Source: Gemmatimonadota bacterium
GTDB lineage: Bacteria; Gemmatimonadota; Gemmatimonadetes; Gemmatimonadales; Gemmatimonadaceae
Direction: 5' to 3'
NCBI GenBank assembly: GCA_026387915.1
Contig: JAPLKS010000017.1
Coordinates: 62,001 to 126,000, forward strand
DNA length: 64,000 bases
Within the stretch, counting starts at the first letter, position 1; each line of letters opens with the position of its first letter. The translations under genes and the position numbers were made by a program. Of this stretch, positions 3,926-20,283 are shown piece after piece. The notes under the pieces are model-generated. The model worked only from the letters and a program-made list of their open reading frames with translations, searched no databases and was not told where the DNA came from.

Positions 3926-4583
3926 TCATTTTCGGAATAGCGGCCGCGTGCCGCTCTCGGTCTCGGACCGCTCCCCTTCTGAACTCGTGCCGGATCTTCT
4001 CGACACGGGGGTCGAGCGCTTGCCGTCGAGCGGTCAGTTCAGTGCCGCGTCGATTTCGGGGCTCGTTTTGTTTGCGCTCGAATTATTCGCCGCGCCGCTG
4101 ACGTTCGGCATTACGCTCGTGGTGTCGGTGCTGTTCTGGTGGATGCTCGATCAGCCATGGTCGGGTCGCCGGAAGCGGACGCGCCGGCGCGGGATCACCT
4201 CGCGGCTGTTGTACTTGAGCACGATGTTGCTGATCGGGATGTGGCTAACGGTCATGCTGATTTTCCGGGCGAGCGATCCGACGCTATCGTCCGGTTTCTC
4301 GGCGACGTTGCCCACGGCGATGTTCGGTGTGGATATTGGTGCGCTGTCGGCGCTCAATGGCATGCGGCAATACCGGGCGAGTACAGCACCAATCGATATG
4401 GGGCAGACGAGCGTTGCGCCCTTTAGTTTGTTTGCGCATGGCGCGGCGTCAACGATTGCCATCAGCCTCTTGGCGTATTCGGTGGTGCTGGGGCGTCGGC
4501 GCCTGCGCCGTCGATTGCGAGAGGTTGACCCCCGCAGTGGCCGTGGTGGCGGCGGTGCCTCGCGCCGCATCATTGATTCGTAG
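3915..4583 (+). CDS. Hypothetical membrane protein of the polysaccharide locus
   Basis: Not recognised as a named family. 222 residues from ATG 3915, which overlaps the end of the Wzz/BY-kinase gene by 11 bp, so translation is probably coupled. A polar N-terminus of about 45 residues is followed by hydrophobic segments near 47-80 (probably two helices separated by a short turn), 100-118 and 176-193. Basic loops ('RRKRTRRRG', 'RRRLRRRLR') suggest cytoplasmic connections. The C-terminus is Arg/Gly-rich. Position between the co-polymerase and the polymerase suggests an accessory role in glycan assembly; that is inference from context only. Confidence 0.7.
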   Translation: MPADHFRNSGRVPLSVSDRSPSELVPDLLDTGVERLPSSGQFSAASISGLVLFALELFAAPLTFGITLVVSVLFWWMLDQPWSGRRKRTRRRGITSRLLYLSTMLLIGMWLTVMLIFRASDPTLSSGFSATLPTAMFGVDIGALSALNGMRQYRASTAPIDMGQTSVAPFSLFAHGAASTIAISLLAYSVVLGRRRLRRRLREVDPRSGRGGGGASRRIIDS

Positions 4584-4598
4584 CGGCGCGCTGTCCTG

Positions 4599-6131
4599 AT
4601 GAGCAGCGTGCGCGTGGAACCGTCCAGCCCAGCGGCAGCGACGTTTGTGGCGCCGTCGGTGGGACTGCGGCCGCGTGTGGCGCAGCGCCGTGCGTCGTTT
4701 ACCAACGTGCTGATCGGTGGTTTTTCCCTGCTCACGCTCTTGCTCTTGTCCGGCGTTGGTGGCCGTCCGGCGGCAATCGTGTACGCGTTGGCAGCGGGGT
4801 TTGTGGCGCTGGTGCTCCATACGCGCGATCCGGTAGCGTATATGAGTTTCACGCTCTGGATGTGGTTTGTGTCGCCGTTTGTGCGGCGCGTGCTCGACAT
4901 GCACCATGGGTGGAACCCGACCAGTCCGGCGCTCCTCGCCCCCCAGTTTGCCGCTGCCGTGGCGGTGATGACGTTGGCGCGTCGTGCCCGATCGCTACGA
5001 AATCCTCTGTTTGCGCCGTATCTGCTGGTGTTGGCGGCACTCGCGTATGGCTATTCGGTGGGAATCATTAATGCAGGGATTGTGCCCGCTACGTATGCGC
5101 TCGTGACGTGGCTCGCGCCGGCGTTCTTCGGTTTGTTTTTGGCGGTCGAGTGGCGGCGGTACCCCGCCATGCGCGAGGAGCTCTTGCACACCTTTCGTAT
5201 TGCCCTGCCGCTCCTTGCCGCGTACGGCGTGTATCAGTTTGTTCGGCTGCCGCAATGGGATTCTGGCTGGATGCGGAACGCCGATTTGCGAAGCATCGGG
5301 CTGCCGTTGCCCTTTCTGGTGCGCGTGTTCGGGACGCTCAACACGCCTGGGCCGTTTGCGGCCGTGCTGCTGACGGGCGTGTTGATGATTCTGCCAACGA
5401 AAGGATGGTTTCGGTATGTGTCGGTGACGCTGTCGCTGCTCGCGCTGTTGTTAACGCGCACCCGGTCCGCTTGGGTGGCATTCATTGTCGGGTTGTTTGT
5501 GTCGCAGCTGTCGCAGCCCCTATCGCAAATGCCGAAGCGCACGATCACGCTTATTGCGGTGGCGTTGATGGCGCTTCCGTTGGCGACCATGCCGCAATTT
5601 CGGTCGTCGATTGCGTCGCGACTCAATACGTTTTCGAATCTGCGTGGTGACAACAGCTTTATGAAGCGCGTGGCGTTTTCGTCGGTGACGGCAAGCAATA
5701 TTGTCGAATCGGCGGAGGGTGCCGGCCTCGGCTCCACCGGCGGCGCGACCAAGCTCTCGAATACGAAAGGCATGCGCTCCCTCGACAACGGATTTCTTGA
5801 AATCTTCTACGTGCTCGGCTGGCCGGGCGGCACGGCGTTTTTTCTCGGTATTGCCGGACTGCTCGTGCAGTCGGCGCGCTTTGCGGAGACGCGAGCCGAC
5901 TCGTTTGCGGGGACGGCGCGCGCCACCGCGGTCGCGTTGCTCTCCATGATTCCCGTGGGAGACGTGTTCACGGGCGCGACCGGGCTGTTGCTCTGGGCGA
6001 TGGTCGGCTTTGGGATTAGCGCGCACGCGTATCACACCACGACTGGGCTCGCAATCAAATCGCAGGCTCGTCGATTTGCCGAACGGCAGCGAGCGCGGGT
6101 GCCGGTCACTCGCGTTCCCTCTGTCATCTGA
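4599..6131 (+). CDS. O-antigen polymerase/ligase family membrane protein (Wzy/WaaL-like)
   Basis: Polytopic inner-membrane protein expected to polymerise repeat units or ligate the finished glycan. 510 residues from ATG 4599, with about ten or more hydrophobic segments and a longer periplasmic loop around 330-395. The family's characteristic stretch is present: 'LLLTRTRSAWVAFIVGL', resembling the 'TxSRg/aw' helix of Wzy_C proteins, followed by 'LDNGFLEIFYVLGWPGG', which matches the 'DNxyL..l...GlpGl' element. Wzy and WaaL enzymes cannot be separated by sequence at this level. The preceding membrane-protein gene ends 15 bp upstream. Confidence 0.85.
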   Translation: MSSVRVEPSSPAAATFVAPSVGLRPRVAQRRASFTNVLIGGFSLLTLLLLSGVGGRPAAIVYALAAGFVALVLHTRDPVAYMSFTLWMWFVSPFVRRVLDMHHGWNPTSPALLAPQFAAAVAVMTLARRARSLRNPLFAPYLLVLAALAYGYSVGIINAGIVPATYALVTWLAPAFFGLFLAVEWRRYPAMREELLHTFRIALPLLAAYGVYQFVRLPQWDSGWMRNADLRSIGLPLPFLVRVFGTLNTPGPFAAVLLTGVLMILPTKGWFRYVSVTLSLLALLLTRTRSAWVAFIVGLFVSQLSQPLSQMPKRTITLIAVALMALPLATMPQFRSSIASRLNTFSNLRGDNSFMKRVAFSSVTASNIVESAEGAGLGSTGGATKLSNTKGMRSLDNGFLEIFYVLGWPGGTAFFLGIAGLLVQSARFAETRADSFAGTARATAVALLSMIPVGDVFTGATGLLLWAMVGFGISAHAYHTTTGLAIKSQARRFAERQRARVPVTRVPSVI

Positions 6132-6152
6132 CGGACGAAAAGGACACGCGAC

Positions 6153-6554
6153 ATGGAACAGATTGAACACATCGTCTCCAATGGTCAGCCACTGGCCTAT
6201 ATCATCCGCGCCTCGCTGGTACCGGAACGCACCACGTTTCTGACGCCGCCCGAGTTCAAGCAGCAGGTGGGCTATGTGGTGTATCCGGCGGGCGGCGAGA
6301 TTCAACGGCACGTGCATTTGCCGCTCCAACGCCGGCTCGTGGGAACGTCTGAAGTGCTGATCGTGAAGCAGGGGCGTTGCGAGATGGACGTGTATAACGA
6401 TGCGCGTGAATTGGTCGCCACGCGCGAGCTCGCGACGGGCGACGTGATGTTGATGGTGGGCGGCGGACACGGATTTCGGATGCTGGAACCGACGGTGCTG
6501 CTCGAAGTGAAGCAGGGTCCATATACTGGACTCGAAGAAAAAGAACGCTTCTAG
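6153..6554 (+). CDS. Cupin-fold protein, probable sugar-modification or regulatory enzyme
   Basis: 133 residues with a double-stranded beta-helix (cupin) pattern. 'YPAGGEIQRHVHLP' supplies the His pair of cupin motif 1, and 'GDVMLMVGGGHGFRM' supplies the motif 2 glycine and histidine. The protein looks complete as a single-domain cupin. Similar small cupins occur in lipopolysaccharide and capsule clusters, often with sugar aminotransferases, which is the arrangement here: the DegT aminotransferase starts 18 bp downstream. Substrate and activity (isomerase, epimerase or metal-binding accessory protein) cannot be read from the sequence. Confidence 0.75.
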   Translation: MEQIEHIVSNGQPLAYIIRASLVPERTTFLTPPEFKQQVGYVVYPAGGEIQRHVHLPLQRRLVGTSEVLIVKQGRCEMDVYNDARELVATRELATGDVMLMVGGGHGFRMLEPTVLLEVKQGPYTGLEEKERF

Positions 6555-6571
6555 TCATCTCGGACTGCATC

Positions 6572-7708
6572 ATGATTCCCGTGAATGAGCCGGTGATCGG
6601 CGAGCGTGAACTTGCCAATGTGACGGAGTGCATCCGTACAGGCTGGATCTCTTCTGCTGGCCGGTTCATCGACGCCTTTGAGTCGGGCTGGTCCTCCTAC
6701 TGCGACCGCGCGCACGGTGTGGCCGTCGCCAATGGAACGGTCGCCCTTCGATTGGCGGTGGCCGCCCTCGATCTACAGCCCGGTGACGAAGTGATCATGC
6801 CGACGTTCACGATCATTTCGTGCGCGGCGGCGGTGGTGGAGTGCGGCGGCGTGCCGGTGCTCGTGGATGCGGACCCTGAGACGTTCGGCATGAACGTCGC
6901 GCAGGTGGCGGCCAAGATTACGCCGCGGACGCGGGCGATTATGCCGGTGCATTTATATGGGCACCCGGTGGACATGGACCCGTTGCTCGCGCTCGCCGCG
7001 GAACATCGCCTTGCGGTGATCGAAGATGCGGCCGAGGCGCACGGCGCCGAGTACCTCACATCGTTTGGACGTTCCGCTCCGACCTGGCGTCGGTGCGGCA
7101 GCTTTGGCGATGCGAGTGTGTTCAGCTTTTACGCCAACAAGCTGATCACCACCGGCGAAGGTGGCATGTTGGTGACGGACAGCGACGCGATGGCCGCGCG
7201 CACCCGATCGCTCCGCAACCTCTGCTTTCAGCCCAAGCGTCGGTTCTATCACGAGGAACTCGGTTTCAATTTCCGACTCACCAACCTGCAGGCCGCCGTG
7301 GGCGTGGCGCAGTTGGAGCGGATGCCAGACGTCCTGAAGCAGAAACGATGGATGGGGCAGGCGTACGGGGAACGGCTCGCGGGGATTCCGGGGTTGCAGA
7401 TTCCGATGACGAAACCCTGGGCGCGGCACGTCTTTTGGATGTACGGCCTCGTGGTGGACGAGAGCACCGGACTCAATGCGGTGACATTCGCCGAACGCTT
7501 GGCTGCCCAAGGGGTGGAAACGCGGCCGTTCTTCCTTGGAATGCACGAACAGCCCGTGCTGCAACAGCGTGGCCTATTTGGCGGCGAGCACTATCCCGTA
7601 GCGGAGCGATTGGCGCGGCAAGGGTTGTATCTCCCGTCTGGCGTCGCGCTGACGCCGACTCAACTGGACGCCGTGTGCGTGGCGGTGCGAGAGGTGCTTG
7701 GCGCATGA
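6572..7708 (+). CDS. DegT/DnrJ/EryC1/StrS-family PLP-dependent sugar aminotransferase
   Basis: Transfers an amino group to a keto-sugar nucleotide to make an amino-sugar precursor. 378 residues, the usual family length. The start reads 'MIPVNEPVIGERELANV', typical of the family. Further motifs are 'GVAVANGTVALRLA', 'PTFTIISCAAAV', 'IEDAAEAHGA', and the PLP-lysine element 'FYANKLITTGEGGM', with K190 as the likely Schiff-base lysine. 'LGFNFRLTNLQAAVGVAQL' completes the signature. The stop overlaps the next methyltransferase start as ATGA, so the two are probably co-translated. The aminated sugar may be the substrate of the downstream methyltransferases. Confidence 0.93.
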   Translation: MIPVNEPVIGERELANVTECIRTGWISSAGRFIDAFESGWSSYCDRAHGVAVANGTVALRLAVAALDLQPGDEVIMPTFTIISCAAAVVECGGVPVLVDADPETFGMNVAQVAAKITPRTRAIMPVHLYGHPVDMDPLLALAAEHRLAVIEDAAEAHGAEYLTSFGRSAPTWRRCGSFGDASVFSFYANKLITTGEGGMLVTDSDAMAARTRSLRNLCFQPKRRFYHEELGFNFRLTNLQAAVGVAQLERMPDVLKQKRWMGQAYGERLAGIPGLQIPMTKPWARHVFWMYGLVVDESTGLNAVTFAERLAAQGVETRPFFLGMHEQPVLQQRGLFGGEHYPVAERLARQGLYLPSGVALTPTQLDAVCVAVREVLGA

Positions 7709-8475
7709 CGGCTCCATTCGGTGCGGCCTATTCGGGCAGTTACGACGCGATCTACGGGGAAAAGGACTACGCGGCGGAGTGCACGCTGATTGAATCACTG
7801 CTCCGGTCGCACGCCGGCGGGCCGGTTGCGTCGATACTCGATCTCGGTTGTGGGACCGGAAATCATGCGATTCCGCTGGCGCAGCGCGGCTATGCGGTGA
7901 CCGGTGTCGACCGATCGGAGGCGATGTTGGCGATTGCGCGTACGAAGGCCGCGACCGCCGGCGTTGCGCCAACGTTCGCCATAGCCGACGTGCGCACCGT
8001 GCAGCTGGGGCGCGAGTTTGACGCGGCGTTGATGATGTTCGCCGTACTCGGATATCAAATTGACAATGCCGATGTGCTCGCGACGTTGCGGGCCGTCCGT
8101 GCCCACCTTGCGGTGGGATCGCTGTTCATCTTTGATGTGTGGCACGGGCCAGCGGTGGTGCGCATCGGTCCATCACCTCGCGTGAAAGTGATCGAGGCCG
8201 GCGGCGATACGTTGTTGCGTGCGGCGGACGGCACGCTCGACAGTGCCCAACAGACCTGCTTGGTGAAGTACCAGCTCTGGCGTCTTCGCGGGTCTCAACT
8301 TGTGGACCGAAGCGAAGAAGCACATGTGATGCGGTACTTCTTTCTGCAGGAAATCAGGTTGTTCCTGCAGGTGGCCGGGTTTGAGTTGGTTGAGGCACGT
8401 ACGCAGGAGAATGCCGCGGCCCCAACGGAAAACGACTGGAATATGGTGTGTGTCGCACGCGCCATACTGACGTGA
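7705..8475 (+). CDS. Class I SAM-dependent methyltransferase
   Basis: 256 residues from ATG 7705, which overlaps the aminotransferase stop by 4 bp. The frame is open far upstream, but only this start gives a normal methyltransferase N-terminus ('MTAPFGAAYSGSYDAIYGEK'). Motif I 'ILDLGCGTGNHAIPLA' binds SAM, 'VTGVDRSEAMLAIA' supplies the acidic residue of motif II, and 'FDAALMMFAVLGY' the motif IV region. This arrangement resembles N-methyltransferases of amino sugars such as DesVI-like enzymes, and the neighbouring DegT aminotransferase fits that, but O-methylation cannot be excluded. Confidence 0.88.
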   Translation: MTAPFGAAYSGSYDAIYGEKDYAAECTLIESLLRSHAGGPVASILDLGCGTGNHAIPLAQRGYAVTGVDRSEAMLAIARTKAATAGVAPTFAIADVRTVQLGREFDAALMMFAVLGYQIDNADVLATLRAVRAHLAVGSLFIFDVWHGPAVVRIGPSPRVKVIEAGGDTLLRAADGTLDSAQQTCLVKYQLWRLRGSQLVDRSEEAHVMRYFFLQEIRLFLQVAGFELVEARTQENAAAPTENDWNMVCVARAILT

Positions 8476-9311
8476 TGAGTCGCGAGGCGATCGAGCACAA
8501 CCGCGTCGCGCACGATCAATACGCCGAGTCGTACGACAGCGGCCATCCCGAAATCTTTAATTCCGTGGAGCAGGAACGGCTCGCGGATGCACTCGCGCGT
8601 GCTGTTGGCGCTGTGGGTGCCACGCGCGACGGGGACGGTGCCATGCGCGCCCTCGACGTTGGAAGCGGTTCGGGGAATCTCACCAATCATCTCCTGCGCC
8701 TCGGCGCGCGTGTGACGGCAGCGGATCTCTCAACGAAACTGCTTGAGGTGACGCGCCGTCGGTTTGCCTCCACCGGCCGACTCGAAACGCAAGCGCTCAA
8801 TGGGACCGATCTGCAACCGTTGCCAACTGAGTCGTTCGACCTCGTCGCCGCATACTCCGTGCTACACCACGTGCCGGATTATTTGACGCTGGTAGCGGAG
8901 ATGGCGCGCGTGACGCGGCCGGGTGGCGTGGTGTATATCGATCACGAGCGGAACGATGCGTCGTGGACCAGTGAGAGTTATCGGAAATTTCAGGGGGAGG
9001 CGGTCGTGTGGCCGCCCCGTCGCTGGTACTACTGGTTGCAACCGAGCCGCTACTGGAACAGGATCAAGCCAAAGCTGCAGTGGCGGCTGTGGCAGGATCC
9101 GCGTTGGATGCCGGAGGGCGATCTTCACATCTGGCCGGACGATCATATTGAGTGGGCGCGCGTCGAGGAGGTGCTTGCCGCCTCTGGCTGTCGGCCGATG
9201 GTGAGCGAAGAGTACTTATTGTTTGAATCGCGGTATCAGCGGTCGGTATGGAATTCGTGGCGCACGCGCACGAGCGACATGCGTCTGCTCATTGCGCGAA
9301 AGGACGGCTGA
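8475..9311 (+). CDS. Class I SAM-dependent methyltransferase (UbiE/Methyltransf_11 type)
   Basis: 278 residues from ATG 8475, whose first base is the last base of the preceding stop (TGATG). Motif I reads 'ALDVGSGSGNLTNHLL', motif II 'VTAADLSTKLLEVTRRRF', and 'FDLVAAYSVLHHVPDY' plus 'VTRPGGVVYIDHE' follow the Methyltransf_11 pattern. The C-terminal third is Trp-rich ('WPPRRWYYWLQPSRYWNR'), unusual for the family and possibly part of a carbohydrate- or membrane-facing surface. It sits between another methyltransferase and a glycosyltransferase, suggesting a second glycan methylation. The acceptor is unknown. Confidence 0.87.
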   Translation: MSREAIEHNRVAHDQYAESYDSGHPEIFNSVEQERLADALARAVGAVGATRDGDGAMRALDVGSGSGNLTNHLLRLGARVTAADLSTKLLEVTRRRFASTGRLETQALNGTDLQPLPTESFDLVAAYSVLHHVPDYLTLVAEMARVTRPGGVVYIDHERNDASWTSESYRKFQGEAVVWPPRRWYYWLQPSRYWNRIKPKLQWRLWQDPRWMPEGDLHIWPDDHIEWARVEEVLAASGCRPMVSEEYLLFESRYQRSVWNSWRTRTSDMRLLIARKDG

Positions 9312-10471
9312 TGTCCTCGACCGCACGCCCGATCCGCGTTTTCTTTCCATGCACCGGACTCGGCCGCGTGGCGCGCGGATTCGAGACCTTCACGCGCGAT
9401 TGTGCGGACGCCCTGCGCGGGCGCGACGATGTGGCGCTGACGGTGTTCGGTGGCGGCCAGGAGCTGACCGAAGGAGAGCGGCACATTGCCTCGTTGTCAC
9501 GACGGGGCGCAGCGGCTGGCCTGTTGGGCAAGCTCTTGCATCGTGATCCGTACTTCGTGGAGCAAGCGAGCTTTGCGGCCGCATTTCTTCCTGCCCTGAT
9601 TGCCGGTGATCCGGACGTGGTCTATTTCGCGGATCTCAACGTGGGGAATGCCTGTTGGCATTGGCGGCGGATCAGCGGTCAACGCTTTCGCTTGCTGTTT
9701 TACAACGGGGGCGCAACGACCAAGCCTTTCACGCGCTGTGATTTGGTGCAGCAGGTGAGTCCCGAGCACTATGACGCCGCGCTCGCTCGCGGAGAGTCGG
9801 CGGAGCGGCAAGTGCTGCTGCCGCACGGGCTGCAGGTGTCCGCACAGTTTACACCGGTGACGAATGACGAACGTCGCGCCACGCGCGCGGCACTTGGTGT
9901 GCCCCTTGAAGGGCCCTTGGTGCTGAGTGTCGGTATGCTCGACCAGCAGGTGAAGCGCATGGATCTCGTGATCCGTGAGACCGCCGCATTGACCAGCGTG
10001 CGACCCCATCTGCTGTTGCTGGGCGAGGAGACGCCGGAAACGCCAACTGTTCGCGCACTGGCCGAACGTGAACTGGGCGCGGGGCGCTACACCATGCGCA
10101 CTGTCCATCGGACGCTGGCGATGGCGGCGTATCGTGCGGCGGATACCTTTGTGCTGGCGTCGCCACGCGAAGGATTCGGTCTCGCATACTTGGAAGCGCT
10201 TATGAGCGGTGTGCCATGCGTCGTGCAGGATACGCCGACCACCGCGTATGTATACGGCGCCTTTGGTCACCGCGCGGATCTGTCAGTGCCGGGCGTGCTC
10301 GCCGGGCACCTCGAGCCGTTGCTTGCAACGCCGCCCGAGCTTGCCGTGTCCGTTGCGCAGCACGCCTGGGTGCGTGACCGATTTGGATGGGCCAACCTGG
10401 CGCCGCGTTACGCCGCGATGCTGCACGCCTGCGCCGAGGGGCGGCGCCCCGTAGTGTTACCGACCGACTAA
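9311..10471 (+). CDS. Glycosyltransferase family 4
   Basis: Retaining GT-B glycosyltransferase, expected to add one sugar to the lipid-linked repeat unit on the cytoplasmic face. 386 residues from ATG 9311, overlapping the previous stop by one base (TGATG). The C-terminal nucleotide-binding domain has 'LVLSVGMLDQQVKRMDLVI' (the strand before the phosphate-binding K), and 'SPREGFGLAYLEALMSGVP', which carries the EX7E motif and the acidic residues that contact the donor. The N-terminal domain is diverged. The stop overlaps the convergent gene at 10468 by 4 bp, ending the first plus-strand block. Confidence 0.88.
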   Translation: MSSTARPIRVFFPCTGLGRVARGFETFTRDCADALRGRDDVALTVFGGGQELTEGERHIASLSRRGAAAGLLGKLLHRDPYFVEQASFAAAFLPALIAGDPDVVYFADLNVGNACWHWRRISGQRFRLLFYNGGATTKPFTRCDLVQQVSPEHYDAALARGESAERQVLLPHGLQVSAQFTPVTNDERRATRAALGVPLEGPLVLSVGMLDQQVKRMDLVIRETAALTSVRPHLLLLGEETPETPTVRALAERELGAGRYTMRTVHRTLAMAAYRAADTFVLASPREGFGLAYLEALMSGVPCVVQDTPTTAYVYGAFGHRADLSVPGVLAGHLEPLLATPPELAVSVAQHAWVRDRFGWANLAPRYAAMLHACAEGRRPVVLPTD

Positions 10472-11637
10472 GCGTGCGGCGCTTGGCGCACGCCGCGTTC
10501 CACCGCGGAGAGTAGCGCTGGCGCGAATCCGTTGAGGTCGAGGTGGCTGCTGAAGAAGTCCACACATCGACGTGAGTATGCGTCGCGCGAAAACGCGATG
10601 AGGAACGGCGCAATATCGCTGACGTTCGTAATGACGAACCCGAGGTTGTACCGTCGCACAAGGTCGCTCAGTTCGCCCACCTCGTTAACGAGCACCGGTA
10701 GGCCGTGCTGCAGATAGGTGCTGATTTTCCCAGAGGCGAGGCCGATGTGCTGCAGATTCTTCCCCGTGTAGCGACTCTGAAAATCTGGTGTGTAGAGCGC
10801 GATGCCCAGATCCGCGCTCCGGAGGAGCTGGCCAATATCGCGTACGTCAGGAATGTCCCAGTTCGACACGTAGACACGCGCGTTGCCGGCACGTTTTTGA
10901 AAATCCGCAGCGCTCGCCGCGGCGTACCGATCGTGCAGCACCAAAACCCAATCACTGGGCCAATCTCCAACGCTGGCGGCCAGTGGCCCGATGCCCGACC
11001 AGTGTTCGATGGACCCAGAGACCAGCGCGATCTTCTTACTCCGATCAATCCCTAGGCGATCGTGCAGGAGAAAGGTGCGATCGCCATCCTTCGCAGTGCG
11101 GCCAGCAACGGGTACGCAGAGGATCTTCTCAACGGGAATGTTGTTTTCGCGTGCAAGGAATCCGGCGCGCACGGCGTCTTGGCAGATGGCAAACTGGAGG
11201 GTGCGCGCCGCTTCACGCTCCACGTCTTTGAATCCCGGGCTGCACTCATCGGCAAAAAAGATTTCGTAGGAAATCAGCGCGGTGGGGATGCCGAGTAATC
11301 GGCCAATGGCCGAGGCCTCCACGAGGCCGTAGCGATCGACGCCGATCACGAGCGCGTAGCGCTGGAAGAGAATCTTGGGATCGCACAGTAGCGCGACGAG
11401 TCCGGTGAGTAGATGGAAACGGAATCGGTCAATGAGCCGCGGTTGCCGTCTGGAGAACGGGCCCAATTCAAAGCGAAGCCGCACGTGGTCGCAGGGCGCC
11501 GTCTGGCTGATGGGCATGCGTGGGCACTTCACATCAACGGAATAACCCGCCTCGACGAGCAGCTCGACAATCCCCGTCAGATTGGGATTGTTGTTGAGAT
11601 TGCCCTCGGGGTGGATGATCAGCACGCGTGGACGCAT
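10468..11637 (-). CDS. Glycosyltransferase, GT-B fold (family 4-like)
   Basis: 389 residues from ATG 11637, reading 'MRPRVLIIHPEGNLNNNPNL'. The frame continues upstream into the Wzt gene, but this start is typical and lies 5 bp after the Wzt stop. The N-terminal Rossmann half begins with a beta-strand and glycine/asparagine loop. The C-terminal half has 'IALVSGSIEHWSGIGPLA', 'ALYTPDFQSRYTGKNLQ' and 'KISTYLQHGLPVLVNEVGE', resembling group 1 glycosyltransferases but with a weak EX7E motif. It is third in the minus-strand Wzm-Wzt block and probably builds the glycan exported by that transporter. Confidence 0.8.
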   Translation of the reverse strand: MRPRVLIIHPEGNLNNNPNLTGIVELLVEAGYSVDVKCPRMPISQTAPCDHVRLRFELGPFSRRQPRLIDRFRFHLLTGLVALLCDPKILFQRYALVIGVDRYGLVEASAIGRLLGIPTALISYEIFFADECSPGFKDVEREAARTLQFAICQDAVRAGFLARENNIPVEKILCVPVAGRTAKDGDRTFLLHDRLGIDRSKKIALVSGSIEHWSGIGPLAASVGDWPSDWVLVLHDRYAAASAADFQKRAGNARVYVSNWDIPDVRDIGQLLRSADLGIALYTPDFQSRYTGKNLQHIGLASGKISTYLQHGLPVLVNEVGELSDLVRRYNLGFVITNVSDIAPFLIAFSRDAYSRRCVDFFSSHLDLNGFAPALLSAVERGVRQAPHA

Positions 11638-11642
11638 GGTGG

Positions 11643-12887
11643 TCAGCCGGTCACGTCCCACGAGTGGTCGACGAGGAAATACCTCGGTGCTTCTGGGTTG
11701 GTGCGCCCCGTGCCATAGAAGTCGCCCGGCTCCACATTCATCGCGCCCGCATGCCACACGAAATCCGCGATGTCGCCGTTCACCGTGCTGAACAGCGAGA
11801 CGCGGTAGGTGCCGGGTTCAAAGGGCAGTCGTGGGATGCTGCACGTAAAGACGCCGGATCCGGGGACGCTGGCAAAATCGCCGCGCTGCGCGTCGCTCGA
11901 GAGCTCGCAGAGCTGCTCGTCCACGAATCCGTGGATCACGACGTCGATGTGCACATTCTGCAGGGCGCTGGCTTCGGCGTGGTACCGAACCTCAATGCGC
12001 ACGCTGTCGCCCGAGCGGATCAATCCGCCGCCGCTGGCCGCATTCACGACCGCAAACGATTCAAAGCGGAGCGCTCCGTTCCCCGTGCGATCCGTGCGAT
12101 TCTGCAACGGAATCTCACCGATCGTTTCGATGGAGCGCAGATACTGCTGCACCACGGCTCCCGCTGGCCCGTCGGCGGAGACCTGCCCGCCTTCAAGGAG
12201 AATGCCGCGCGCACAAAGCGCCGTGACGGCGACCATGTTGTGGCTCACAAACAAGACGGCGCGCCCTTCTTCTCGCGCCACTTCGCCCATCTTGCCAAGG
12301 CATTTGCGTTGGAACGCAGCGTCGCCGACGGCGAGCACTTCGTCCACCACAAGAATTTCTGGATTGAGATGCGCGGCCACCGCAAAGGCGAGGCGCACGT
12401 ACATCCCGCTGCTGTAGCGCTTGACCGGCGTGTCGAGAAAGCGCTCGATCTCGGCGAACTCCACAATCTCGTCGAAACGCTGCTGAATTTCGTGACGGCG
12501 CATGCCGAGGATGGTGCCATTGAGAAATATATTCTCGCGGCCGGTGAGCTCTGGATGAAACCCAGTGCCTACCTCGAGCAGGCTCCCGATACGACCATAC
12601 AAACGTATTTCACCTTCCGTGGGCCAGGTGATGCGCGAGAGCAGCTTGAGCAAGGTGCTCTTGCCCGCGCCGTTGCGGCCAATGATGCCGACCGTTTCGC
12701 CGCGCTGAATGTTGAACGACACATCCCGGAGTGCCCACAATAGGTCGGTCGCGTCCTTTGAACTACCGGACACCTTATTGATGAGTGCTTCGCGTATGGT
12801 CGTCGCCCCAGTATCCATGCCGAGGCGGTACGCCTTGGAAAGGCCGGCAACGGCAATCGCGAGTTCGCTCGGCGCGTTAGATGACAT
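11643..12887 (-). CDS. Polysaccharide ABC exporter ATPase with C-terminal glycan-binding domain (Wzt-like)
   Basis: Energises export of a lipid-linked glycan through the Wzm-like permease. 414 residues from ATG 12887, overlapping the permease end by 11 bp. The nucleotide-binding domain covers residues 1-250: Walker A 'GRNGAGKST' at 70-78, signature 'YSSGMYVRLAF' at 158-168, Walker B 'ILVVDE' at 178-183, and H-loop H216. Residues about 265-414 form an additional beta-rich domain ('GDSVRIEVRYHAEA', 'FEPGTYRVSLFS'), matching the Wzt_C carbohydrate-binding module. In E. coli O8/O9a this module recognises the modified non-reducing terminus of the chain, so export here may depend on chain capping, possibly by the nearby methyltransferases. 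Confidence 0.92.
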   Translation of the reverse strand: MSSNAPSELAIAVAGLSKAYRLGMDTGATTIREALINKVSGSSKDATDLLWALRDVSFNIQRGETVGIIGRNGAGKSTLLKLLSRITWPTEGEIRLYGRIGSLLEVGTGFHPELTGRENIFLNGTILGMRRHEIQQRFDEIVEFAEIERFLDTPVKRYSSGMYVRLAFAVAAHLNPEILVVDEVLAVGDAAFQRKCLGKMGEVAREEGRAVLFVSHNMVAVTALCARGILLEGGQVSADGPAGAVVQQYLRSIETIGEIPLQNRTDRTGNGALRFESFAVVNAASGGGLIRSGDSVRIEVRYHAEASALQNVHIDVVIHGFVDEQLCELSSDAQRGDFASVPGSGVFTCSIPRLPFEPGTYRVSLFSTVNGDIADFVWHAGAMNVEPGDFYGTGRTNPEAPRYFLVDHSWDVTG

Positions 12888-13701
12888 CGGCCAGCCGGCG
12901 CTCAAAACGCGCGAAGAATACACAGCCCACGGTGAGCGCCACGAGGACGCCAACCACGGACATCATCACCGACAACGATGTCGGAGGAGCCGTGCCAGCT
13001 ACCGACCAGCGAAAGCCGTCGAGCATACCCGCGAGTGGGTTCAGCACAAAGAGTGCGCGAAAGCGTTCGGGTACGGCGGCCGTGCCGTATGCCACGGGAC
13101 TCGCATAGAGTAACAACTGGACGAGCACCGGGAGCGCGTACTGTAAATCGCGGTACCGCACCGACAGCGCCGCCGAGAGAGTGCCGATGCCGAGTCCGGT
13201 GAGGAGGAGCAGGGCGACCCACACGGGTAGTAGCAACAATGGCCAGCTGAGCGGAACGTGGTAGATCACCATCAAGACAACGAGCGAGCCCATGCCGACC
13301 AGGAAATCCATGGTCGTGCTCCAGAGCGCGGACAACGGAAGCACGAGGCGCGGAAAGTACACTTTAGTGACCAAGCTACTTTGGGCGAGTAGCGATCCAC
13401 TGCTCCGGACGAGCGCATTCTGGAATGCGGTCCAGGCGATAAAGCCCGCATAGGCAAAGAGGAAATACGGAATGCCGTCGCTGGGAAGCTTGGCCACTTT
13501 ACCGAAGACGACCGTGAAGAGCCCACCGGCGATCAGCGGTTGCAGGACCACCCACACGACGCCGAGGAGCGTCTGGCGGTAGCGTAGCGTGACATCGCGC
13601 CGGCCAAGAGCCGCGGCGAGGTCGCGAAAGCGCCACACTTCCACAAAGTCGGGGAAGCGGTGAGTCCCGACGGGCCGGATGACCTCGAGGGGTTCGCTCA
13701 C
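12877..13701 (-). CDS. Polysaccharide ABC-2 type permease (Wzm-like)
   Basis: Membrane subunit of the glycan exporter. 274 residues if started at GTG 13701 ('VSEPLEVIRPVGTHRF'), which matches the usual start of the family. A TTG at 13824 in the same frame would add 41 residues but would overlap the divergent glycosyltransferase gene. The cytoplasmic N-terminus has 'RDVTLRYRQTLLGVVWVVLQP', the standard ABC-2 exporter element, followed by about six membrane helices and the 'NPLAGMLDGFRW' C-terminal element. It is the first gene of the minus-strand export block, with its probable promoter in the 80 bp divergent gap 13702-13781. Confidence 0.9.
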   Translation of the reverse strand: MSEPLEVIRPVGTHRFPDFVEVWRFRDLAAALGRRDVTLRYRQTLLGVVWVVLQPLIAGGLFTVVFGKVAKLPSDGIPYFLFAYAGFIAWTAFQNALVRSSGSLLAQSSLVTKVYFPRLVLPLSALWSTTMDFLVGMGSLVVLMVIYHVPLSWPLLLLPVWVALLLLTGLGIGTLSAALSVRYRDLQYALPVLVQLLLYASPVAYGTAAVPERFRALFVLNPLAGMLDGFRWSVAGTAPPTSLSVMMSVVGVLVALTVGCVFFARFERRLADVI

Positions 13702-13781
13702 GCTCGACGGGGGGTTGATCGCTGGACGTCCATATCCTGTGGATTCTACCCCACGCGCCCTCGTAAGGAAGGGCTCGCCGC

Positions 13782-14777
13782 TTGGCTCGGGCCCGCTCCT
13801 CGGTGCATACTGTGGCTGTGCCAACCGTCTCGGTTCTTGTGCCCACCTGGCGCCGTCCAGAATCGCTCGCGCGGTGCCTGCGGGCGCTTGCCGCTCAGAG
13901 CCAGCCGCCGGTGGAGATTGTGGTGGGGTGGAGGGCCGACGACTCGGAAACGGCGCTGGCGTTGGCCACCCTCACCCTAGAGCTGGGCGTCCCCGTCCGT
14001 CAGGCGATGACCGCCGAACCCGGGGTGGTGGCGGCCATGAATGCCGCGCTGGAGCTCTGCACGGGGACCGTGATTGCGCTTACCGACGACGATGCCGAGC
14101 CCCGTCCTGATTGGCTGGAGCGCCTTGGACGCTGCTTTGACGACCCCGCCGTGGGCGGGGCCGGGGGGCGGGACTGGCAGCCAACGGAACGGGGCTCCCG
14201 CGAGGAGGTGGGGCGGATCCAGTGGTTTGGTCGCGTGATTGGCCATCATCACTTGGGGGTGGGGCCGGCGAGGCCGGTGGATGTGCTGAAAGGGGTCAAT
14301 GCGGCTTTTCGGGCACCACTACTGCGGACGCTGCGATTCGACAGCCGATTGCAGGGGGCGGGGGCGCAGATGTTCTGGGAGTTGGCGCTCTGCCTGCCGC
14401 TACGCCGTGCCGGGTGGACGCTCGTATACGATCCAGCGATTGCCGTGGAGCATCACATTGAGCCGCGGCACGATGCGGACCAGCGGCATCGCGGCACCTT
14501 CGTGCCCGAACCGCAGGTGCAGGCGGTGCACAACGAGACGTTGATTCTCCTCGAGCATCAGCGGGGGTTCCGCCGTTTGGCGTTCATAGCATGGGCCCTG
14601 CTGGTCGGGACTCGCATGGAGCCTGGGCTGGCGCAGATACCGCGGCTCTGGCTGATGGGGGATGCCCTTGCCGTGGCGCGCTGGCGCTGGACGCTGGTAG
14701 GCCGCGTCCGAGGATGGAAATCGTGGTGCGGGTCCGGAGGGGATCCGGCTCGGAGTGTTCCGCGTCCGACGGTGTGA
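13782..14777 (+). CDS. Glycosyltransferase family 2
   Basis: Inverting GT-A glycosyltransferase. 331 residues from TTG 13782, supported by a good ribosome binding site 'AAGGAAGGG' at 13766-13774; GTG codons at 13803 and just after are alternatives. The start of the GT2 domain reads 'VSVLVPTWRRPESLARCLRAL', then 'VVAAMNAALELC' and the metal-binding 'ALTDDDAEPRPDWL' (DXD-like). A later 'ARPVDVLKGVNAAFRAPLL' matches the acceptor-loop region. A C-terminal hydrophobic helix near 265-285 may attach it to the membrane. It is first in the third polysaccharide block and is transcribed divergently from the ABC exporter. Confidence 0.88.
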   Translation: MARARSSVHTVAVPTVSVLVPTWRRPESLARCLRALAAQSQPPVEIVVGWRADDSETALALATLTLELGVPVRQAMTAEPGVVAAMNAALELCTGTVIALTDDDAEPRPDWLERLGRCFDDPAVGGAGGRDWQPTERGSREEVGRIQWFGRVIGHHHLGVGPARPVDVLKGVNAAFRAPLLRTLRFDSRLQGAGAQMFWELALCLPLRRAGWTLVYDPAIAVEHHIEPRHDADQRHRGTFVPEPQVQAVHNETLILLEHQRGFRRLAFIAWALLVGTRMEPGLAQIPRLWLMGDALAVARWRWTLVGRVRGWKSWCGSGGDPARSVPRPTV

Positions 14778-14926
14778 CGACGCGGGTGCGTGCCGCTGCG
14801 GCGTGCCCTAACTTTCGGGAGTCAACAGCGGGGGCACGGCGCCGTGTGGCGGCGGTTCCCGAGGGATGACATGTGCGGCGTGCGTCCCCCCAACACTTTT
14901 TCCGCCGCGTCGCGGGTGAGGCTCTC

Positions 14927-16066
14927 GTGACACCGTTCTCGCTGGCCTTTGTGGCTCACGATGTGCATCGGCAGGGCGGCATGGAGCGCGCCGCCGCCGA
15001 GGTGCTGTCGCGTTTGGCCACGCGTATATCAGTGACGGTGATCGCGCGCTCCTGTGCACTGGGCGACGCGCCCGTCCGTTGGATTCCGGTGACGGGCCCC
15101 ACGCGTCCCGCACCGTTGCGCACGTGGGCGTTTGCACGCGCCGCGCGGGCGGCGGAGCGGCGTGCGGGATGCACCATCACCAATAGCATTGGCGCGGCCG
15201 CGATCGATGCGGAGGTGATTACGGCGCAGTTCTGTCACGCGGCATTCACCAAACGATTTGGCGGATTGCGGGGCGGCTCAGGTGTGCGTGCGCTGTATCA
15301 GCGCTTTGCGCAGTCGCGGTTCGTGGCGGAAGAACGGGTGGCGTATGGGTCGCGACGCTTGCGGCAGGTGATTGCGGTGTCGCGCGGCACGGCGCGCGAA
15401 CTGCAGGAATCGTACGGGGTGCCGGAGTCGCGCATCACCGTGGTACCAAACGGTGTGGACCGCGCGGTGTTTCGCCCGGCGGCCGACGCGGCGGCGCGTC
15501 TGGCCCTGCGAGCGCAACTCGGCTTGCCGCGCGATGCCTTCTTAGCGTTGCTCGTGGGCGGCGACTGGGAGCGCAAAGGGGTGCGCGACGCGATCGATGC
15601 GATTGCTGGGATTGCTGACGGACATCTCGTGGTGCTGGGTCGCGGCGACGTGGCCGCGATGCAAGCGCATGTCTCGCGTGCCGGCGCCGCTGGGCGCGTG
15701 ACATTCGCGCCGCCGAGCCAGACGCCCGAGGCGTACTACGCGGCGTGTGATGCCTTTTGTTTTCCTTCGCGCTACGAGGCGTTTTCGCTGGTGACGCTCG
15801 AGGCCGCGGCGTCGGGTTTGCCGATTGTAGCGCACGCGATCAACGGCACCGAAGAGTTGGTGCGTGACGGCGAAAATGGGTGGCTCGTGCCCTTTGGCGC
15901 GGAGGCGCTGCGCGAAAAACTCCTATTGCTCCGCGACGATCGTGCGCTGCGTGAGCGTTTGTCGGCGGGGGCGGTGGCGTCGTCCGCACGCTACGACTGG
16001 AGCCGGATTGCCGACGAGCAGTATGCGGTGTTGGCCGCGGCGGCGGCCGAACGGAGTCACGGGTAG
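14927..16066 (+). CDS. Glycosyltransferase family 4
   Basis: GT-B glycosyltransferase of 379 residues from GTG 14927 ('VTPFSLAFVAHDVHRQGGME'), preceded by 'GTGAG' at 14916-14920. An upstream GTG at 14873 is possible but gives an Arg-rich extension unlike the family. The glycine-rich 'RQGGMERAAAEVLSRLA' acceptor loop, 'VIAVSRGTARELQ' and 'VVPNGVDRAVF' lead into the donor domain, with 'FLALLVGGDWERKGV' and 'FPSRYEAFSLVTLEAAASG' (EX7E). It lies immediately upstream of the asparagine-synthase fusion with no gap. Confidence 0.9.
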   Translation: MTPFSLAFVAHDVHRQGGMERAAAEVLSRLATRISVTVIARSCALGDAPVRWIPVTGPTRPAPLRTWAFARAARAAERRAGCTITNSIGAAAIDAEVITAQFCHAAFTKRFGGLRGGSGVRALYQRFAQSRFVAEERVAYGSRRLRQVIAVSRGTARELQESYGVPESRITVVPNGVDRAVFRPAADAAARLALRAQLGLPRDAFLALLVGGDWERKGVRDAIDAIAGIADGHLVVLGRGDVAAMQAHVSRAGAAGRVTFAPPSQTPEAYYAACDAFCFPSRYEAFSLVTLEAAASGLPIVAHAINGTEELVRDGENGWLVPFGAEALREKLLLLRDDRALRERLSAGAVASSARYDWSRIADEQYAVLAAAAAERSHG

Positions 16067-19000
16067 ATGTGCGGCATCATCGGCGTCGTGAAGGAAGGAG
16101 CGGCCGCCTCGCGCGACCGACTCGTGGCGGCGCGCGAACTGATGTGGCACCGCGGCCCGGATGACGCGGGCGTGTGGGCCGGCGAGCATGCCTGCGTCGG
16201 TGCGCGACGGTTGTCGATTATCGATCTCTCCAAGACAGGGCACCAACCGTTGGTCAGTTCGGACGCCAAGCGCGTCTTGGTGTTCAATGGCGAGATCTAC
16301 AACTACCGCGCGCTCCGCAAGGAACTGGAAGGAGATTTTGTTTTTCAGTCGCACACGGATTCCGAAGTTGTGCTCCACGGCTATCGGAAATGGGGCGGTA
16401 CTGGACTCGTGCAGCGGCTCGATGGCATGTTCGCATTTTCGTTGTGGGACGAAGACACGCGCACGCTCTTTGCGGCGCGCGACCGCGCGGGGAAGAAGCC
16501 GTTTTACTATCGGCATGAAGACCGCCAGTTTCATTTTGCGTCCACGTTGAATGCACTCCTGGCATTTTTGCCCGGTACGCCGCCCGTGGACCCGATGGCC
16601 GTTGACGCATTCCTTGTGTACCAGGCCGTGCCGTCGCCCTTGAGCATTTTTCGTGGCGTTCGCCAGTTACGGCCGGCGCACCATCTGACATTCCACGCGA
16701 ACACCGGTGCGTGTCAGGAAGAGCGGTACTGGCAGCTCTCGTACGCGACCAAGACCGATGAATCGGAAGCGGAAGTGCTCGAGCACATTGAACGGTTGGC
16801 GCGCGCGGCGGTCACCAAGCGTTTGGAAAGCGACGTGCCGGTGGGGCTGTTCCTTTCGGGCGGCGTGGATTCCTCGCTCGTGGCGGCGTTGGCGTCGCAG
16901 GAAAGTACCAAGCCCATCGAAGCCATGACGCTCGGGTTCGAAGAACCAGCGTTCGACGAACGACAGTACGCGCGCGCCGTGACGCAGCACCTGAAGATGC
17001 CGCTTCACGAAGAGACGCTGCGCCCGGCGCTGGTGGCCGACTTGCCGTCGATCGTCTGGCATTACGGGCAACCCGTGGCTGACGTGTCGATTGTGCCGAA
17101 CCACTATCTGGCGCGCGCGGCGCGACGGTGGATGACCGTGGCCCTGAACGGCGATGGTGGCGACGAACTATTTGGCGGCTATGCGCGGCCGATGCTCGCG
17201 CGTGTTACGGCGCCGTACCGGCGTGCGATACCGGAGCTAATGCGAAATGCCCTGGGCGGACTCTTCGCCCAGACATCCGACGGCCCGCTGCGGCGCTTTG
17301 GGTTGCTGGCACGCGCCGGCGCCGGCAGCGCCGCTGACGCCTTTACGTATGATCGCGCCTTCCGGCCGTTCCGCGCTGAAGCGTATTCCGAAGTGCTCAA
17401 GAATCTCGTGGGCAACACGCATCCGGATGCGCTGTATCGGACGGTGTGGAATGAAGCCGACGGGCTGGACGATGTGGACCGTGCGCTCTATGGAGATTTT
17501 AATACCTATCTCCCCGATCAGTTGCTCGCGAAAGCGGATCGTGCGTCGATGGCGCATAGTCTCGAAGCGCGATCGCCGCTGCTGGATCGTGAGTTGATTG
17601 AGTATGCGGCGACCATCCCCACGGCGCTCCGCCTGCGGCATTTTCAAACGAAGTATCTGCTCAAAAAACTCGCGGGACGTTTCGTTCCGCCCGAGGTGCT
17701 CTTCCGCCGCAAACGCGGATTCGTCATGCCCGCCGCCCGTTGGCTGCGCGGCGAACTCGCCCCGTTCGTACGCGCGGCACTCGACAACCGCACGTTCTTT
17801 GATCGCGGGTGGGTGCGGCCGGAGTTCGTGCGCCGCATCCTCGCCGAACACTTTACGGGCGTGCGCGACTGGGGTGAGCAGATATGGACGTTGCTCGTAC
17901 TCGAAGTGTGGGCGCGCCTCGTCCTCGATCGCACGCTCGATCGTGACGCGCGCATGGATGATTTCCTGCGAAAGCCGGAGCGCGCGCGCCGGACGACGCT
18001 TCGCACGCTACAGCTCGGTATGGAATGGTTCGCTGAGAAGCCCGGCGGTTTGAATCGCGTGTACTTCGAGTTGATGCGGCACCTCCCAGACGCCGGCGTG
18101 GATGTGCACGGCCTTGTGGCGGGCACCTCGCAAGTGACGGTGGACGCTCGCGGAATGATTGAAGGATTCGCGCCGCACTCCGAGCGACTCTTACCCCGCC
18201 TGCTTGCGGTGCGCCGAAAAGCGGGGCCGCTGCTTCGCTCTGATCCCGGTGTGCTGGTGGTGAGTCATTTTGCGCTCTACACGGCGCCACTCCTCGACGA
18301 ACTCGCCGACCATCCACTGGTCGTGCACTTTCAGGGCCCGTGGGGACTTGAAGGGCGAGCGGAACGTCAGTCGAAGTTCACCGAGATGGCCAAGTCCGCC
18401 GTCGAGCGGGCGGTGTATTCGCGCGCGAAAGCCTTCATCGTGCTCTCGACGCCCTTTGGCCGGATTCTCGAGTCGCGCTTCGGCATTCCACGCGAGCGCA
18501 TTCATGTGATTCCCGGTGGTGTGGATGTGCCACGCTTTGCGATTCAGGATTCTCCTGAGGAGTGCCGCCTGCGACTGGACTGGCCCACGGATCGGCCAAT
18601 TGTCCTCGCCGTACGGCGCCTCATGCGCCGCATGGGGCTCGACGACCTCATTGCCGCCGTGCCGAAGCTGCGCGAGACCATTCCGAATGTGTTGGTGCTG
18701 ATTGCGGGACGCGGACCGATTGCCGGCGAGTTGCAGGCGCGCATTGATGCCGCTGGGCTCGCGGATCACGTGCGCCTGCTGGGGTTTGTGCCCGATGCGC
18801 TGTTGCCGCAGGCGTACCGCGCCGCCACGATCACGATCGTGCCGACGGTGGAACTCGAAGGATTCGGATTGATCGTCGCGGAATCGCTGGCCGCCGGCAC
18901 ACCCGCGATGGTCACTCCCGTCGGCGGATTGCCGGAAGCGGTATCGGGACTCTCGCCGAGCTTGGTGTTGCCGAGCACCGGCGCTGAAGCGATTGCCGCC

Positions 19001-19135
19001 GGGCTCGCGAACGCGCTGAGCGGTAAACTGGTGCTCCCAGATGCGCGCACCTGTACTGAGTACGCGCGCCGCCACTATGACTGGCCGGTGATCGCGGAAC
19101 GCACGCGACTCGTGTACGAAGAGGCCATGCGATGA
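16067..19135 (+). CDS. Fusion protein: glutamine-dependent asparagine-synthase-like amidotransferase plus family 4 glycosyltransferase
   Basis: A single 1022-residue frame with two enzymes. Residues 1 to about 622 are AsnB-like: 'MCGIIGVV' places the catalytic cysteine at position 2 after Met removal, then 'HRGPDDAGVW', 'NGEIYNYRAL', the ATP pyrophosphatase loop 'SGGVDSSLVAAL' near 264-275, 'LNGDGGDELFGGY' near 360, and the usual C-terminal 'EQIWTLLVLEVWARLVLD'. Residues about 640-1022 are a complete GT4 domain: 'GGLNRVYFELMRHL', 'IVLAVRRLMRRMGLDDLI', and 'EGFGLIVAESLAAGTP' near 931. AsnB paralogues in glycan loci are thought to amidate sugar acids, so the fusion may couple amidation and sugar transfer. 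ATG 16067 abuts the previous stop. Confidence 0.92.
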   Translation: MCGIIGVVKEGAAASRDRLVAARELMWHRGPDDAGVWAGEHACVGARRLSIIDLSKTGHQPLVSSDAKRVLVFNGEIYNYRALRKELEGDFVFQSHTDSEVVLHGYRKWGGTGLVQRLDGMFAFSLWDEDTRTLFAARDRAGKKPFYYRHEDRQFHFASTLNALLAFLPGTPPVDPMAVDAFLVYQAVPSPLSIFRGVRQLRPAHHLTFHANTGACQEERYWQLSYATKTDESEAEVLEHIERLARAAVTKRLESDVPVGLFLSGGVDSSLVAALASQESTKPIEAMTLGFEEPAFDERQYARAVTQHLKMPLHEETLRPALVADLPSIVWHYGQPVADVSIVPNHYLARAARRWMTVALNGDGGDELFGGYARPMLARVTAPYRRAIPELMRNALGGLFAQTSDGPLRRFGLLARAGAGSAADAFTYDRAFRPFRAEAYSEVLKNLVGNTHPDALYRTVWNEADGLDDVDRALYGDFNTYLPDQLLAKADRASMAHSLEARSPLLDRELIEYAATIPTALRLRHFQTKYLLKKLAGRFVPPEVLFRRKRGFVMPAARWLRGELAPFVRAALDNRTFFDRGWVRPEFVRRILAEHFTGVRDWGEQIWTLLVLEVWARLVLDRTLDRDARMDDFLRKPERARRTTLRTLQLGMEWFAEKPGGLNRVYFELMRHLPDAGVDVHGLVAGTSQVTVDARGMIEGFAPHSERLLPRLLAVRRKAGPLLRSDPGVLVVSHFALYTAPLLDELADHPLVVHFQGPWGLEGRAERQSKFTEMAKSAVERAVYSRAKAFIVLSTPFGRILESRFGIPRERIHVIPGGVDVPRFAIQDSPEECRLRLDWPTDRPIVLAVRRLMRRMGLDDLIAAVPKLRETIPNVLVLIAGRGPIAGELQARIDAAGLADHVRLLGFVPDALLPQAYRAATITIVPTVELEGFGLIVAESLAAGTPAMVTPVGGLPEAVSGLSPSLVLPSTGAEAIAAGLANALSGKLVLPDARTCTEYARRHYDWPVIAERTRLVYEEAMR

Positions 19136-20283
19136 GCGCGCCGCGCCGATTCGTGTTTGTCGATCACGCTGGCGTCTTGGGTGGTGCAGAGTTGTCGTTG
19201 CTCGACCTGGCTACGGCGCTCGGCAGTCGGGCGCGGGTGGCGTTGTTGGCTGACGGTCCGTTTGCCGATCGGCTGCGCGCGCGTGGCGTACGCGTGACGA
19301 CGACGTCGATGGGCGCGCTGGCCGAGGTGCGCAAGGATACGCGGCTTCCGTCGCTCGGGGCTGTCGCCGCCGCCTGGCGTGCGGCCGGCGCATTAGGTGT
19401 GACGGTGGACCCATCGGAACTGCTCTGCGCAAATTCGCAGAAAGCGTTCGTCGTCAGTGCGCTGGCTGGCTGGCGCGCGGGGCGACCCGTGGCGTGGATG
19501 CTGCGGGACATTCTGGCGCCACCGCATTTTAGCAGGGCAAACATCCGGGCCGTGATCACGCTCGCGAACTGGCGCGCCTGTTGTGTGGTGGCCAACTCGC
19601 AGGCGACCGCCGACGCCTTCGTGGCCGCCGGTGGGCGCCGCTCGCTCGTGCGGGTGGTGCACAACGGCATTGATGCGGCGCCATTTGATGCGGTGACGGA
19701 GGCTGATGGTCGCGCGGTGCGTCTGGCGTTGCACATTCCCGACGACGCCTTCACCGTGGCAATGCCGGGGCGCTTTCACGCGTGGAAAGGGCAGCACGTG
19801 CTGCTGGATGCGCTCGCGCAGTTGCCCAGCGTGCACGCCATCATTGCGGGCGCGCCACTCTTCGGCGAGCACGCGTTCGCCGATGAACTGCGCGCGCGCG
19901 CCGCTCGACTGGGCGTGATGGATCGCGTGCACTTCACCGGGTTTCGCGACGACGTGCCCGCGTTGCTGACGGCCGCCGATGTGGTGGTGCATGCCTCGAC
20001 GCTGCCGGAACCATTCGGCCGCGTGGTGGTGGAGGGAATGCTGGCACACCGACCGGTGGTGGCGAGCAATGCGGGCGGTGTTCCCGAACTCATCGTGGAC
20101 GGCGAGTCCGGCGTGTTAGTTCCCCCCGGTGACGCGGCCGCGCTCGCGGCGGCCATCGCGGCGCTGCGTGATGACGCGCCGCGCGCTGCGCGCATTGCGG
20201 CGGCAGGGGCTCGGCGCGCGCGGACGCTGTTCACCGTTGGCGCGATGGCTCGCGGAATTGAAGAGGCGCTGGCAGCCTGTTGA
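19132..20283 (+). CDS. Glycosyltransferase family 4
   Basis: 383 residues. ATG 19132 overlaps the fusion gene's stop as ATGA, so the two are probably translated together. The N-terminal domain has the acceptor loop 'HAGVLGGAELSLLDLATAL'. The hinge 'VVHNGIDAAPFD' is followed by the donor domain, with 'FTVAMPGRFHAWKGQHVLL' (phosphate-binding R and K) and 'LPEPFGRVVVEGMLAHRP' (EX7E). It is the last gene of the polysaccharide locus and is followed by a stem-loop shared with the convergent beta-barrel gene. Confidence 0.9.
   Translation: MSAPRRFVFVDHAGVLGGAELSLLDLATALGSRARVALLADGPFADRLRARGVRVTTTSMGALAEVRKDTRLPSLGAVAAAWRAAGALGVTVDPSELLCANSQKAFVVSALAGWRAGRPVAWMLRDILAPPHFSRANIRAVITLANWRACCVVANSQATADAFVAAGGRRSLVRVVHNGIDAAPFDAVTEADGRAVRLALHIPDDAFTVAMPGRFHAWKGQHVLLDALAQLPSVHAIIAGAPLFGEHAFADELRARAARLGVMDRVHFTGFRDDVPALLTAADVVVHASTLPEPFGRVVVEGMLAHRPVVASNAGGVPELIVDGESGVLVPPGDAAALAAAIAALRDDAPRAARIAAAGARRARTLFTVGAMARGIEEALAAC

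Follow-up and report, generated by a model that had tools for sequence, protein, structure and literature searches.

Uronamides alter the charge of capsules and O-antigens. In P. gingivalis, deletion of PGN_1234, which encodes an amidotransferase related to family TIGR03108, abolishes a uronamide (PMC7468200). In a wbpS mutant of H. pullorum, HexNAcA remains instead of HexNAcAN and chain extension stops (PMC6025236), and Sphingomonas colonies change in morphology when insertions hit the exosortase-associated amidotransferase gene, a GT4 glycosyltransferase gene, or Wbp-like sugar genes of an exopolysaccharide locus (PMC11340318). As long as the enzymes are separate, it is hard to settle at which level amidation takes place, nucleotide sugar or chain, and which transferase recognizes the uronamide. 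In this study, we examined a Gemmatimonadaceae gene that joins an asparagine synthetase (AsnB)-like amidotransferase and a GT4 glycosyltransferase in a single chain, i.e., two familiar kinds of enzyme in a new, lineage-specific domain combination. A natural fusion of this kind identifies the partner glycosyltransferase directly and makes both steps testable in one protein.

The fusion gene occupies positions 16067 to 19135 (stop codon included) on the plus strand of the window, the whole 64,000-nucleotide stretch of DNA that was analyzed; all features below lie on this strand unless stated otherwise. Its translation starts with MCGIIGVV and is uninterrupted over 1022 codons. The original prediction, one unbroken frame of 1022 residues with AsnB motifs in the first ~620 residues and a full GT4 domain from about residue 640, was exact in frame, length, and coordinates, and its two domain assignments held as well. 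Residues 1 to 620 represent a complete class II glutamine amidotransferase/AsnB-like unit, residues 621 to 643 (17927 to 17995) a linker, and residues 644 to 1022 (17996 to 19132) a complete GT-B/GT4 glycosyltransferase. Pfam analysis identified GATase_7 at residues 47 to 166 (7.6e-42), Asn_synthase at 241 to 617 (7e-93), Glyco_transf_4 at 659 to 821 (1.2e-18), and Glycos_transf_1 at 837 to 1002 (5.5e-30), all four well beyond the cut-offs.

The glutaminase domain (residues 2 to 166; 16070 to 16564) was delimited by Pfam and by its invariant residues. Cys2, Arg48, Asn74, Glu76, and Asp98, which form the glutaminase site, do not vary among 15 fusion orthologues. The ATP-dependent amide synthetase domain, i.e., the Asn_synthase match (16787 to 17917), was also supported by fold matches to 7ylz and 1ct9 and contains the PP-loop SGGVDSS (residues 264 to 270; 16856 to 16876), which is near-invariant in the 15 fusions, with Ser270 replaced by Gly in one. 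One fusion orthologue (G033, locus L052) carries Tyr for the conserved Asp363 (D363Y) in a synthetase motif, making the activity of this copy doubtful. In the GT4 half, the GT-B fold extends across the whole domain, and both glutamates of the EX7E motif, EGFGLIVAE (residues 931 to 939; 18857 to 18883), are invariant in the 15 fusions. This half reaches no equivalog cut-off.

The top NCBIfam match of the fusion is TIGR03108 (XrtA amidotransferase) with 526.9 bits, under the curated cut-off of 816.9. The broad asparagine synthetase model TIGR01536 scores 448 bits, over its cut-off of 267, and the AsnB-specific model NF006949 scores 268 bits, under its cut-off of 499. The AsnB half shares 35% identity (342 bits) with a Vibrio XrtA amidotransferase and 30% identity (144 bits) with E. 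coli AsnB. True asparagine synthetases have in common a Thr-Thr-x-Arg segment whose residues bind aspartate and ATP (PMC5775275). It reads TTIR at positions 322 to 325 of E. coli AsnB, ADVS in all 15 fusions (here residues 338 to 341; 17078 to 17089), and ADSS in the Vibrio XrtA enzyme. Similarly, Glu348 of E. coli AsnB is Asp in both the fusion and the Vibrio enzyme. By sequence, the AsnB half is closer to uronamide synthases of the XrtA/WbpS type than to asparagine synthetase, and it is located in a polysaccharide locus; the original prediction had pointed to AsnB-like genes of capsule and exosortase-type loci.

Exosortase_EpsH had no match in the fusion's own genome or in any of the 17 congeners searched (genus g1), and in G031, G013, and G094, the exosortase match sits on a different contig from the fusion or gene pair. 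Because the TIGR03108 cut-off is not reached and the exosortase context is missing, we did not file the AsnB half under this family; judged from sequence, it probably works like one of its members. A second AsnB-like protein is encoded elsewhere in the same genome (contig C13, L100:3707-5503, minus strand); its best NCBIfam match is a lasso-peptide cyclase model, below the cut-off, and this region is a possible RiPP locus.

Full-protein searches revealed single-frame, full-length orthologues with 57 to 97% identity in 14 other Gemmatimonadaceae genomes; genera with full-length orthologues are g1, g13, g31, and g33. A query consisting only of residues 561 to 760 (200 residues across the junction), run over 179 Gemmatimonadaceae genomes, was spanned in one open frame in 19, with 53 to 100% identity over the junction. 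The frame is complete, with at least 1020 codons, in 17 of these genomes; the other two have shorter frames of 583 and 629 codons, the latter (G112) reaching the contig end. Judging from their record titles, the named carriers are mostly independent Gemmatimonadetes metagenome-assembled genomes from lakes, a reservoir, and groundwater. With 19 genomes reading through, a chance or spurious long frame is ruled out, and the stop or frameshift at the junction that had been named as one way to refute the prediction was not seen. Values of dN/dS in six pairwise comparisons were 0.05 to 0.12 for the AsnB half and 0.04 to 0.16 for the GT half; by this measure, purifying selection acts on both.

Among 395 genomes sampled from the phylum, none outside the Gemmatimonadaceae matched the fusion at 1e-15. 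Four genomes of other phyla yielded no fusion, and viral contigs gave no match. We also examined 20 AsnB-like genes in long open frames of the phylum as candidates for other AsnB fusions. None was real; all are ordinary proteins of ~607 to 668 aa that lack a C-terminal domain and whose frames are merely open, spuriously, beyond the N terminus. Several genera of the Gemmatimonadaceae have the fusion as a lineage trait. The predicted combination of AsnB and GT4 is a genuine, conserved fusion in a polysaccharide locus, and it is not peculiar to the genome in which it was noticed. The original prediction knew of no characterized enzyme with this exact architecture, and we likewise found no description or characterized example of an AsnB-GT4 fusion in the literature searched, a search that covered few subscription journals.

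In the orthologue alignment, few stretches are less conserved than the linker, which carries insertions in orthologues. Between the last residue of the AsnB half and the core of the GT half lie 39 to 54 residues, a difference of up to 15. Structure prediction of the junction near residue 625, suggested as a check, was performed with AlphaFold2 on the basis of 16 sequences. The model has a mean pLDDT of 84 and a pTM of 0.62; both halves were modeled confidently, and pLDDT is below 50 at residues 624 to 642. Structural comparison of the model matched the AsnB half to TsnB9 (7ylz; Z of 37.8) and E. coli AsnB (1ct9; Z of 34.6) and the GT half to MshA (3c4q) and PimB' (3oka), with a Z of 33 over 359 residues. 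The relative arrangement of the halves is unreliable in this model, which leaves room for a transient interface between them. A variable, low-confidence linker of differing length fits tethering better than channeling via a fixed interface, and the channeling of an intermediate put forward in the original prediction is not supported in this form. In the model and the alignment, the linker reads as a flexible tether, not a rigid channel.

The gene is tightly embedded in a polysaccharide cluster. The upstream GT4 gene (cluster c3; 14873 to 16066, Pfam), whose TAG stop abuts the ATG of the fusion, is found immediately 5' in 14 of 15 orthologous loci, and the downstream GT4 gene (cluster c1; 19132 to 20283, Pfam), whose ATG overlaps the fusion stop (ATGA), adjoins the 3' side in all 15. 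The same cluster includes a GT2 glycosyltransferase (13782 to 14777, Pfam) and, on the minus strand, an ABC-2 polysaccharide exporter pair (11643 to 13824) consisting of a Wzt-like ATPase (11643 to 12953) and a Wzm-like permease (12877 to 13824). The remainder (5 to 10471) encodes an initiating sugar-phosphate transferase, a Wza-like exporter, a Wzc-like kinase, a Wzy_C protein, a DegT aminotransferase, methyltransferases, and a GT4 enzyme. A LegC-family-like sugar aminotransferase beside the methyltransferases (6572 to 7708) has an orthologue in no other locus at the clustering threshold used. The protein encoded at 10468 to 11757 (minus strand) has no Pfam match and weak glycosyltransferase similarity, and among the loci compared, its orthologue occurs only in the nearest relative, G066.

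Furthermore, the same locus exists in other forms in related genera. In genus g14 (G105, G013, and G094; L053, L054, and L056), the same two proteins are encoded by adjacent separate genes. In G013 and G094, stop and start codons of the two genes overlap as ATGA; an ATGA overlap is also present in G105, where the gene caller picked a later start. In genus g23 (G087, G099, and G122; L060, L061, and L058), GT4 alone lies between c3 and c1, without the AsnB half. GT-only, split, and fused forms of one locus indicate that the GT step is conserved and that the AsnB part is added to it optionally. The split pairs nest within the fusions in the AsnB tree (support of 95/96), and AU tests of fusion followed by fission versus the reverse gave p values of 0.10 and 0.21. 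A more distant second pair, an AsnB-like gene followed after 3 bases by a GT4 gene, occurs in another genus of the family (G028, L067:8723-11890).

As the original prediction had stated for AsnB-like genes of such loci, the amidotransferase is also found as a separate gene, and the adjacent AsnB-GT4 pair recurs in other phyla. On a Vibrio alfacsensis plasmid, an XrtA amidotransferase gene is followed by a GT4 gene after a 5-base gap within an XrtA operon, and on a plasmid of Isosphaeraceae EP7, the corresponding gap is 10 bases. Of the GT4 genes compared in the Vibrio operon, none matches the fused GT half better than the one that directly follows the amidotransferase gene. The same is true in EP7, clearly for G031, G105, and G099 and by 80.9 versus 80.5 bits for the window's own protein; the paralogues c1, c3, c12, and c29 best match a different gene. 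Since the order AsnB-GT4 recurs unfused elsewhere, the fusion looks, on the basis of these two operons, like a recurring functional pair that has become fixed.

Within the annotated parts of the cluster, no uronate-forming dehydrogenase was identified. Elsewhere in the genome, a compact operon (L099:93-5689; G000:C14 from about position 238092) encodes WbpD-, WbpB-, WbpE-, and WbpA-like enzymes and a UDP-glucose dehydrogenase. The WbpD-like protein matches 3mqg (8e-72), the WbpB-like protein 3q2k (1e-132), and the WbpE-like protein 3nyu (2e-82); 3mqg and 3q2k are enzymes of the Wlb/Wbp pathway. The fourth enzyme is a UDP-sugar dehydrogenase; the UDP-glucose dehydrogenase gene follows, and next comes a UDP-xylose synthase/dehydratase-like gene. 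From these matches, the genome likely encodes a complete Wbp-type uronic-acid pathway, with UDP-GlcNAc(3NAc)A as a plausible metabolite of the cell. WbpB-like genes are present in 162 of 178 Gemmatimonadaceae genomes. A nucleotide-sugar dehydrogenase, considered as a discriminating partner, was uninformative, as 143 of 148 genomes of the family have one. Being near-universal in the family, the supply genes do not point to a uronic acid in particular. Such a substrate is plausible by analogy with the characterized amidotransferases, the genomic supply genes being permissive.

Taken together, the original observation is confirmed and its interpretation supported in part. The fusion is probably a bifunctional surface-polysaccharide enzyme in which one half amidates the carboxylate of a sugar and the other transfers this sugar or extends it, the two being joined by a flexible tether. 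We infer the substrates, the sequence of the steps, and what tethering contributes as follows. The N-terminal half would hydrolyze glutamine, activate a carboxylate with ATP at the PP-loop, and amidate it. The carboxylate would most likely be the acid group at C6 of a uronic sugar (UDP-HexNAcA or UDP-GlcNAc(3NAc)A type), which would yield a uronamide. The GT4 half would then place the uronamide onto a growing lipid-linked repeat unit or add the next sugar onto it, and the linker of ~20 residues would hold the two activities together at a 1:1 ratio without a rigid tunnel.

Several other explanations deserve consideration. The GT4 half might add the uronic acid first, after which the tethered AsnB half would amidate the lipid-linked chain and let the next transferase extend it. 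The wbpS mutants of H. pullorum, which still transfer unamidated HexNAcA before extension stops, and the GT4 standing alone in genus g23 would suit this order; against it, published proposals, as far as they are cited from King 2010 in PMC6025236, place WbpS at the UDP-sugar level. Sequence alone cannot tell the two orders apart, and we regard amidation after transfer as unlikely. Another unlikely variant concerns the amine: instead of ammonia, the AsnB half could use an amino acid, an amino sugar, or a hydroxylamine-type donor and so give a substituted amide of the sugar carboxylate. The closest solved relative in both sequence and fold, TsnB9, is called a hydroxyamidotransferase, and cyclases such as lasso-peptide and beta-lactam synthetases also belong to the AsnB superfamily, but the fully conserved glutaminase site is what would be expected for an enzyme using glutamine-derived ammonia.

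A housekeeping asparagine synthetase incidentally fused to a GT4 enzyme is quite an improbable identity for the N-terminal half, even though no other Asn_synthase protein of the genome is both full-length and high-scoring (316 bits, versus 80 bits for the runner-up, a 629-aa frame) and even though it passes the broad TIGR01536 cut-off, and coexists with AsnRS. The replacement of Thr-Thr-x-Arg in every fusion and the location in a polysaccharide operon speak against it; moreover, fusion-less congeners (e.g., G019, G126, and G137) keep AsnRS and GatB, and asparagine supply is thus not tied to the fusion. An assembly or annotation artefact, or the production of two proteins from the one frame by internal initiation, is highly improbable. 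The GT gene of the split version does begin at the ATGA overlap, and most fusions have Met at residue 652. Nevertheless, the frame crosses the junction in the 19 genomes, the window has ACG at the split-gene start position, the fusions preserve no start codon at this place, a consistent Shine-Dalgarno-like site is absent, and residue 652 falls within the GT fold.

Beyond the preferred reading of a tethered amidotransferase and glycosyltransferase, we tentatively consider that the one polypeptide makes a uronamide and builds a polysaccharide with it, the tethered amidotransferase serving as a quality step that restricts addition or extension to the amidated sugar; we hold this to be possible rather than probable. 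Related genera, in which this locus holds the split form or the form without AsnB, provide a natural comparison set. If the quality-step reading is true, fusion, split, and GT-only loci would form a natural series in which the charge of a surface polysaccharide is switched on and off.

Compared with described systems, the fusion stands closest to WbpS, WbqG, PGN_1234, and the XrtA amidotransferases (TIGR03108, eps_aminotran_1). They share a class II amidotransferase plus PP-loop synthetase of ~620 to 630 aa and residence in polysaccharide loci, and these members are needed for uronamide formation where tested. The Vibrio XrtA enzyme and the fusion both have ADxS and GDGGDE motifs in place of the aspartate-binding set. 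Known WbpS/XrtA-type members are separate proteins, whereas the fusion runs on into GT4, stays under the family cut-off (527 versus 817), and occurs without an exosortase in its own genus. The V. alfacsensis and EP7 pairs consist of the same two enzymes in the same order, but as two unfused genes 5 to 10 bases apart, and the Vibrio locus also has exosortase A, a deacetylase, and FemAB. E. coli AsnB (1CT9) and human ASNS have the overall fold, catalytic Cys, and PP-loop in common with the fusion; E. coli AsnB differs in its Thr-Thr-x-Arg segment, in Glu348, and in having no GT domain. TsnB9 (7YLZ) is related at ~25% identity and also has no GT domain. Finally, retaining GT4 enzymes of the MshA, PimA/PimB', TuaC, and EpsE families share the full-length GT-B fold and EX7E motif with the C-terminal half, a class assignment by fold and motif; in the fusion, this GT4 domain is carried on an amidotransferase.
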